Positions 39,301-42,300 of a DNA stretch of 64,000 nucleotides are shown here, one piece after another (position 1 is the stretch's first letter; each line of letters starts with the position of its first letter). The DNA lies in assembly GCA_949317995.1 (NCBI GenBank), contig OX439050.1, forward strand, positions 21,654,061-21,718,060. The letters are read 5' to 3'. A model generated the notes under the pieces. It did not search any database, was not told the origin of the DNA, and saw nothing but the letters and a program-made list of their open reading frames with translations. Origin of the DNA: Acholoe squamosa (taxonomy: Eukaryota > Annelida > Polychaeta > Phyllodocida > Polynoidae). The position numbers and the translations under genes were made by a program.

Positions 39301-42300
39301 GACTATCTCATGCCATCACAACATTTCATACAACCCAGTACGTCTCAGAATCCGAACATTTATGATGTAGCCAATCACTTCAGTGACCTACCCAATATTG
39401 ACTCTAAGTTGGACATGGAAATACAATCATTACTAGACTCGATACTCAGTCAACAAGAGGACCATCCTGAATCTAATAATGAACTTACACATGAGGACCA
39501 TCCTGAATCTAATAATGAACTTACACATGACTACGAGACTTGCATAGAGGCACCACCACTTGCTCCACCCAATTCCTATGCCCATGGAAACAGTACCATT
39601 GACTATGAAGAATTATATAAAATTATGAACTGGAAATACGATGCTAACAAAACACCAACTTTAGATGAACCGCCAACCATTGATTTGCCGTCTGAAAAGA
39701 CAGCAACTAATCATCAACTGACCACAGACTCTGACCATTCATGGGTTCCCATCCCATGGCCCCAAGTTGCGAAACAATGGCACAGGGCTAAGACGCGGAG
39801 GTTTGGCGCGGTCTGGGTTTTTGTTGGTTTTGTAGTAACCATACATTACTCAACCTATATTTGTGTACAAGAATATTATGAAACCTTATACAACACTTTG
39901 AGGGATACCAGGAACTTATGGAACCTACCTCCTCGACACATGAAGGATTTGTAAATACTCCAACGGCATGTTGATCAGAAAATCCAACATGGCGGCGCCC
40001 ATGCTCGTACGTCTAGACGGTTTGTAAACAAAGCAAGATTGACTTTTCTATAGCCCAAATGGATCACAGTCCTATGCCGGAATGATTCTAAAACATTTGT
40101 GAAAGTAGTATATTGATTATAAAGTCTCTAAAAACTTGTCTTGTACCAACCAATATACGAAACCAAATGCCAACGACTAGAAATACGAAACAGTCGCCCC
40201 ACTCGGAGCTAGCTTCCGGCAAACCAAAAACAATGGCTGCCACTTCCGCTACGAACAAAAATACAACTTTGCAAGTAGAAATATCCGATTCTGAAGAAGA
40301 AAACGAAACTCTTCTACCCCCCCTGACCCTCAAATCGTCAACAAAGGACATTATTGAGAAAATAAACGAAATTGATACTCGCCTACAGGTCCAAGAATCT
40401 ATTGCCAGAAGGACGATTAGGCTTCTAAGTGGTATGGAGACAAGACTCTTCGGACCAAATGGATTCCCAAATGGTAAAACTGTCACTATCCCAGAAATCG
40501 AAACAAGATTGGATGAACATAGTTCCTCTCTATCTATCCACAGTGACAAAATTGAATCTAATACCTCAGCAACGACCAAAGCCCATTCTGAGCTTGAAAA
40601 ACATGAGAATCAATTTGAAAGGTACGATCTTGATAGGAAAAGAAGAATTCTTGTTCTGGAAGGTATTGATGAGGACAAACCAGGTAGTCTTCGAGACACT
40701 TTAGACCAAATTATCAATGACCTGGGGCTTGATTTCAACAATTCTGTGGCTGAGGCTATATATCGACGAGGTAAGAAGTATGTACCTACTGCACAACAAA
40801 AGCAAAACACTAACTTCAAAAAAAGAAATCGTCCTATAGTAGTTATCTTTTCCTCAGCCCACTACAAAATCCAGATGTTCTCTAATGTAAAAAAACTGAA
40901 AGGAAATGCTGCATGGCGTGGTCTCCACCTAGCTGATGATATATCCAAGGAAGAAAAACAAATCCAAAATGACCTGAGATCAATCCACGCATTGGCACGT
41001 GGTAAGGGGGTGGACTGCTCTATTAGAGGAACACAAATCATCATAGAAGGTCATGCTTACCCATACAAGGAGCTGGGAAATTTACCTTATGATCTATCCC
41101 TACAAAATGCTAAAACTGTTCAAACTCAAGATGGTATTGCCTTCCAAAGTGAACATTCAGTATTTTCCAACCTCTACAAATCTGAAATAAAATTCGAAGG
41201 CCACACATATGACTCTGTTGAAAGAGCATACCAGGCTAAAATGTGTGTAGTATCCAACCAAGTTCATATCCTAAGGAAGGTAAACTCTGCTGCCACACCA
41301 CTTGATAGCATGTTCGCTGGACGTGCATGTAAGAAAACCAACGATTGGTACGACATTGACGAAACTGTGATGCAGAAGCTGCTGGATATCAAATTCAGTG
41401 ACCCTCTACTACTACAACAGCTAGTCCAGACCAAGGGCAAGTACCTATATGAAGCTACGCGACATCGTACATATGGGGCTGGATTCCATCTTGGACAGAA
41501 AAACGATATTAATATAAGAAATGTTGCTCATAATCAAGCTGAATGTGCCAACAAGTTGGGAGAATTTCTAATGAAAATTCGTTATGGACATACAGGTGAA
41601 CAACCTCTCCCTACTGCAGAGGAAATTAGACTTCAAGACGCAGCAAGACAACAACAAGATAATCCCTAACTTTCTGTATATTTCTGTACCATAACCTACG
41701 AAATCCTGGGCTAAAGTCAAACAGCTGTATTAAAAGCCTATCAACTTTAATAGCATTACCGGTATACGGGACTGCATAAAGGCAGAAGTTCCGATATTGG
41801 TTAATTATCATAGTGGAGTAAATTGTGGGTTAATTTTTATGTAATCCATCTGCTTTACTGATAGAGAGAAAATGGAAAGATTAATGAAACCAATTCAATG
41901 TATTATTAAATGTATTATACAAATATAAAGAAAATAGAAGACTCCAAAGGTCTACGTATCCTGCACCTAAATGCAAGAAGTATCAAAGCAAATTATGCAT
42001 CTATATGTGCTGAAATCTACCCATCTAACCTTGAAATTTTTACGTTCTCTGAGACATGGTTCAAGTGTGAAGACGATGAATCTAACTTCCAATTTTATGG
42101 TTATACTAGATATAGATTAGATAGGCAAATCCTCGACAATAAGGGAAAAATTAAATCAGGTGGGGGTGTATGTATCTATATAAAGCATGGTATCAAACAT
42201 GATATACAGAAATATGAATATCTTAACAAATCTGATGGTACAATTGAAATCCAATGTATATGCATACTTAAAGATCATATGAAACCAATTTTATTACTAA

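Follow-up and report, generated by a model that had tools for sequence, protein, structure and literature searches.

A NADAR domain appended to the ORF1 protein of a full-length LINE in the annelid Acholoe squamosa, with a tentative role on guanine-linked ADP-ribose

The window, a stretch of 64,000 nucleotides from the polynoid annelid Acholoe squamosa (GCA_949317995.1, contig OX439050.1, 21,654,061 to 21,718,060, forward strand), carries a full-length long interspersed nuclear element (LINE). Its first open reading frame (ORF1) encodes an RNA-coating type of protein that ends in a NADAR domain, and this fusion is confirmed. The leading reading, tentative and a little short of probable, is that the YbiA-type domain removes or holds guanine-linked ADP-ribose on the nucleic acids of the element. 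The parts of the element are as follows.

39949..45217, + strand: full-length LINE, 5269 bases; GAT on both sides, 7 A at the 3′ end, flanks rejoin a frame
39946..39948, + strand: GAT, 5′ flank, possible 3-base target-site duplication
39949..40166, + strand: 5′ untranslated region, with stops in frame ahead of the ORF1 ATG
40167..41669, + strand: ORF1 with coiled coil, RRM, C-terminal domain (CTD) and NADAR (500 residues)
40341..40646, + strand: coiled-coil helices, residues 59-160 (AlphaFold2 model)
40647..40940, + strand: RRM, residues 161-258
40941..41096, + strand: CTD of the LINE-1 ORF1p kind, residues 259-310
41148..41582, + strand: NADAR domain, residues 328-472
41220..41222, + strand: Glu352, aligned with E43 of the Phytophthora nicotianae NADAR
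41241..41243, + strand: Met359, where 44/44 viral NADARs of alignment A7 have the phosphate-coordinating Lys (K50/K95); role of the Lys from PMC11543638
41451..41453, + strand: Glu429, aligned with E125, the YbiA-family catalytic Glu
41910..44780, + strand: ORF2, endonuclease and reverse transcriptase (956 residues; PF14529, PF03372, RVT_1 with E 8.3e-42)
44781..45217, + strand: 3′ untranslated part; AATAAA at 45192, seven A at 45211-45217
45218..45220, + strand: GAT, 3′ flank

ORF1 comprises 500 codons and a stop. The ORF finder places its own start at an upstream TTG (40113); the ATG at 40167 is used here. Across the same interval, the other two forward frames contain 22 and 50 stops per 500 codons. 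A Pfam-A search assigned residues 328-472 to NADAR (PF08719) with an E value of 5.6e-15 and 56.4 bits (cut-off 35.1), and no further domain was found in ORF1 at E values up to 10. PHROGs yielded phrog_1017 (E 2.2e-22). In a single-sequence phmmer search against solved structures, ORF1 matched Escherichia coli YbiA (2b3w, E 1e-4). A profile of ORF1 and its relative P0002 matched the P. nicotianae NADAR (8bau, E 1.9e-9) and YbiA (E 7.3e-7), while profile positions 112-287 matched human LINE-1 ORF1p (2ykp, E 6e-6). Both halves of the fusion are thus detectable by sequence. Profile and fold matches to the NADAR superfamily are both significant, and the Foldseek matches include one named RNA-virus polymerase. 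The coiled-coil helices were placed from the AlphaFold2 model, and their end aligns with LINE-1 ORF1p. Coiled coil, RRM and CTD follow each other in the order of a type II, LINE-1-like ORF1. The original prediction, made from the letters alone, had claimed a LINE ORF1 fused in one frame to a NADAR domain with the NADAR/YbiA motif series; the frame, the ORF1 identity, the profile match and all of the motifs were found. The riboflavin-intermediate N-glycosidase family (TIGR02464, NCBIfam) was weighed and rejected, as its 54.2 bits remained under the curated cut-off of 73.7.

The fusion is not unique to this copy. Querying proteins with ORF1 yielded one relative and with profile A1 two, P0002 and P0003; in both cases, scoring was limited to the 7996 candidates with most words in common. 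Both are distant relatives from other contigs with the same ORF1-NADAR layout. P0003, from a contig of 10.4 kb, has an ORF1-like part and a near-canonical NADAR site. Between the window copy (P0001) and P0002, the NADAR domain is as conserved as the RRM, and the domain looks maintained in the element. Searches for further copies confirmed none of 27 stretches in viral contigs with ORF1, and with profile A1 none of 152 in genome contigs and none of 74 in viral contigs. Searches for related loci with ORF2 and with the P0003 NADAR gave no pattern match. A NADAR tree was calculated from 31 rows (three LINE-type, two solved, eight phage or plasmid, and 18 of 80 viral loci). The window copy and P0002 grouped together (support 99/96); P0003, on a long branch, was placed apart from them, and this placement is weakly supported. 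The three LINE-type domains formed one group in 0% of 200 bootstrap trees, a result still compatible with a single origin, and no donor of the domain was read from the tree. In tblastn, Rhizobium phage RHph_I42 ranked first among phages (34.6%, E 7e-13; 25 listed of 148 records), and six plasmids also matched; these denote similarity only.

Active-site positions were transferred from the alignment with 8bau, whose chain numbers equal those of the paper plus two (own count). Four residues are kept in the ORF1 domain: E43 (E352), R79 (R386), W89 (W394) and E125 (E429). E429 is the Glu in the last strand that separates the YbiA family (PMC11543638, PMC11125620), and an equivalent of E125 is reported as required, whereas Ala at the E43 place reportedly changed activity in vitro only slightly (PMC11543638). 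The Glu that the original prediction had put in the catalytic place is E352; this place holds Glu in 44/44 viral NADARs of alignment A7, a sample fetched with two short patterns and leaning to one subgroup. A relative was encoded at 194 viral loci, of which 80 were kept. Of these, L037 and L061 were excluded and others omitted for size; 47 were translated, and removal of three with stops behind the domain gave the 44 of A7. A7 misaligns P0002 near residue 429, and statements on that region rest on other alignments.

Several observations weigh against a hydrolytic domain in the window copy. Five places are altered: K50 is M359, K75 is M382, R93 is D398, D130 is H433 and W133 is Y436, the last two placements being anchored on Trp/Tyr. 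The Lys seven residues after E352 is present in all 44 viral NADARs of A7 and is Met359 here; Lys358 adjoins it, off by one residue. The pyrophosphate-coordinating Lys (K50/K95) of guanine-ADP-ribose hydrolases is thus missing at its place. Its equivalent is described as essential for efficient hydrolysis, and Arg instead of Lys works in vitro and fails in cells (PMC11543638). The same 44 sequences have Lys at the K75 place and Lys or Arg at the R93 place. M382, D398 (Glu in P0002), H433 and Y436 occupy places changed in both the window copy and P0002. The M382 change weighs little, because YbiA has Ala there and the K75 equivalent is dispensable for catalysis (PMC11543638). The AlphaFold2 models were built on NADAR-rich alignments and so do not count as evidence separate from the sequence match; their confidence is low at residues 432-459.

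The three proteins differ in these places. At the K50, K75, R93, D130 and W133 places, the nearer relative P0002 carries Arg, Met, Glu, His and Tyr, respectively, and its W89 equivalent is Tyr. The farther relative P0003 carries Lys, Lys, Ala, Asp and Trp there, with R79 replaced by Lys. Judged from these residues, the P0003 domain looks competent and activity of P0002 is possible, while activity of the window copy is doubtful because its phosphate-binding Lys is Met. The de-ADP-ribosylation of the original prediction is therefore backed in part: both catalytic-site glutamates are kept, and the essential Lys and other ADP-ribose-contacting positions are changed.

The strongest competitor is a non-hydrolytic NADAR fold that would bind ADP-ribosylated or ordinary nucleic acid, or a protein partner, and aid RNA packaging; the lineage leading to the window copy and P0002 would have lost the activity. 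In both of these proteins, R93 is replaced by an acidic residue, D130 by His and W133 by Tyr, at a NADAR identity as high as that of the RRM. However, both retain the two catalytic-site glutamates and R386, and the Arg of P0002 at the Lys site can function in vitro (PMC11543638). This binding-module reading is considered rather unlikely, albeit with appreciable weight.

Removal or holding of guanine-linked ADP-ribose draws on the known biochemistry. NADARs strip guanine of ADP-ribose, in DNA as well as in RNA (PMC11543638, PMC11833690). Every representative tested in PMC11833690 acted on guanine-linked ADP-ribose on RNA, and those tested were inactive on phosphate-end ADP-ribosylation. ORF1 proteins of this build coat the element RNA, as established for LINE-1 (PMC4441479). 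Because ORF1 proteins coat RNA and NADARs act on guanine, clearing or binding of guanine ADP-ribose is taken as the likeliest role of the domain in this family. The ORF1 protein, built of coiled coil, RRM and CTD and expected as a trimer, would coat the element RNA and thereby bring many NADAR domains onto this RNA, onto the cDNA and onto the target at its nick. There, the domains would remove guanine-linked ADP-ribose or hold the ADP-ribosylated nucleic acid, and this action would protect the element during reverse transcription. ZAP/PARP13, inactive itself, recruits active PARPs and restricts human LINE-1 (PMC4441479), which ties PARPs to LINE ribonucleoproteins without showing guanine modification. 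The proposal that the domain counters PARP-like host enzymes was narrowed: an opposed enzyme would have to modify guanine, because the tested NADARs spare phosphate-end marks (PMC11833690).

A substrate other than nucleic acid, such as a small derivative of ADP-ribose or an NAD-related signal in host immunity, was judged improbable. A small-molecule role has been suggested for phage NADARs (PMC9503650), and the altered pocket may mean a different substrate. Against this, the NADARs of animal RNA viruses were argued to act on macromolecular adducts (PMC9503650), and fusion to an RNA-coating protein favours nucleic acid. Met359 and the further active-site changes would also fit a decaying passenger without function; with the frames of ORF1 and ORF2 open and the NADAR identity to P0002 matching that of the RRM, decay of the NADAR in the window copy appears quite improbable. 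An assembly artefact, or two adjacent elements taken as one, is dismissed as extremely unlikely in view of the single uninterrupted frame, the same layout of P0002 and P0003 on other contigs, the element ends around both ORFs and the published oyster examples (PMC12477816).

ORF2 is open throughout and encodes an endonuclease of the APE type and a reverse transcriptase with the usual motifs, which identifies a non-long terminal repeat retrotransposon. The flanks, once rejoined, give one frame through an interrupted zinc-finger ORF. As to the intact LINE of the original prediction, the reading frames bear it out, and the element can be delimited at both ends. The restored frame and the intact ORFs suggest that the LINE is probably a recent, full-length insertion. 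No target-site duplication longer than GAT occurs at the junction, and no second copy was found within the window.

The lineage was approached with ORF2, for which 328 relatives were found (best 61% identical); scoring compared the best 120 of them and one stretch of human L1. Among the ten relatives listed, ORF2 reached 296-320 bits with six PHD-bearing ones versus 74.7 bits with the stretch of human L1 ORF2p. PHD was confirmed by hmmscan in P0091 and taken from precomputed annotation in the other five, while hmmscan of P0035 and P0101 found no PHD. The reverse transcriptase block reads GVPQGSILGPLLF in this ORF2 and GTRQGCPLSPLLF in human L1. PHD fingers are recorded for the CR1 and L2 lineages (PMC4120745), and Tx1 is assigned to the L1 superfamily (PMC11203168). 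Because of its closeness to PHD-bearing relatives and a reverse transcriptase block unlike that of L1, the element looks CR1/L2-like, of the Jockey superfamily, the references being the PHD-bearing relatives rather than named CR1, L2 or Tx1 sequences. Tx1 membership was considered unlikely, the low L1 score and the differing block speaking against it with L1 as the only comparison. Bivalve CR1-Zenon consensus elements average 5204 bp (PMC10294476); the 5269 bp of this LINE are close to this value, as a lead only.

The roles of NADARs in eukaryotes including animals are described as unclear (PMC11125620). A NADAR domain as conserved as the RRM on the RNA coat of a LINE suggests a host-made mark that the element must remove or read. 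Such a mark would fit a possible defensive ADP-ribosylation of guanine in the nucleic acids of animals. Culture assays exist for LINE retrotransposition, and with them the contribution of a NADAR of this kind could be tested directly. A wider proposal, speculative and held with low confidence, sees NADAR-ORF1 as a distinct and widespread ORF1 type of animal LINEs that serves as a counter-defence against a host enzyme ADP-ribosylating guanine in the RNA or cDNA of retroelements, with a re-shaped pocket of new specificity in the lineage of the window. It would cross superfamilies, with Tx1 in oyster and a CR1/L2-like element here, via exchange of a whole ORF1 or repeated capture.

Upstream of the LINE lies the ORF of a Penelope-like element (36696-39074), open over 792 residues with RVT_1 (E 5.3e-9) and a GIY-YIG nuclease (E 2.5e-5). 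The zinc-finger ORF (39100-39948 and 45218-45370; zf-BED, E 1.5e-7) directly behind it is split by the LINE and may be a second ORF of the Penelope-like element. A host gene with RRM domains (PF00076, E 6.5e-22) occupies an open frame of 1220 residues at 5013-8675; presumably, it is RBM12-like. Matches to the tRNA family above the gathering score at 16203-16273, 16929-16999 and 56352-56422 represent genes or tRNA-derived heads of short interspersed nuclear elements. At 63268-63587, a 77-base unit is repeated in tandem (4.1 copies), and 34595-34707 is a pure TA run (56.5 copies).

NADAR in a LINE ORF1 is already in print and not new as such. Tx1 LINEs of the oyster Crassostrea gigas likewise carry a YbiA-family NADAR in the ORF1 protein (PMC12477816). 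They are known here by description only and are called Tx1, whereas the present ORF2 is nearer to PHD-bearing relatives than to human L1. Among the matches listed, mainly from open-access main texts, no further paper described a NADAR in a LINE. The N-terminal two thirds of ORF1 match the type II ORF1 (coiled coil, RRM, CTD; 'transposase 22') of CR1/L2 LINEs and LINE-1 (PMC4120745). Table 1 of that source names PHD, RRM, CCHC, Tnp22, coiled coil, esterase and zf/lz for the ORF1s of 448 Jockey-superfamily elements, and NADAR is absent from this table. A long terminal repeat retroelement with NADAR is also known, but the domain resides in Pol and not in an RNA-coating ORF1. The P. nicotianae NADAR (8bau) and YbiA (2b3w) have the fold and both catalytic-site glutamates in common with the ORF1 domain, but they stand alone; the K50, R93, D130 and W133 places differ from both, the K75 place from 8bau only. 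Animal positive-strand RNA viruses are likewise RNA-based parasites with NADARs; unlike in the LINE, these domains sit in polyproteins, without ORF1p or reverse transcription (PMC9503650). The main text of that source on viral NADARs contains 0 occurrences of retrotranspos-, transpos- or reverse transcriptase. Compared with these systems, the apparent novelty of the A. squamosa LINE comprises a seemingly different lineage, a bounded full-length element, conservation of NADAR equal to that of the RRM, and a re-shaped active site.
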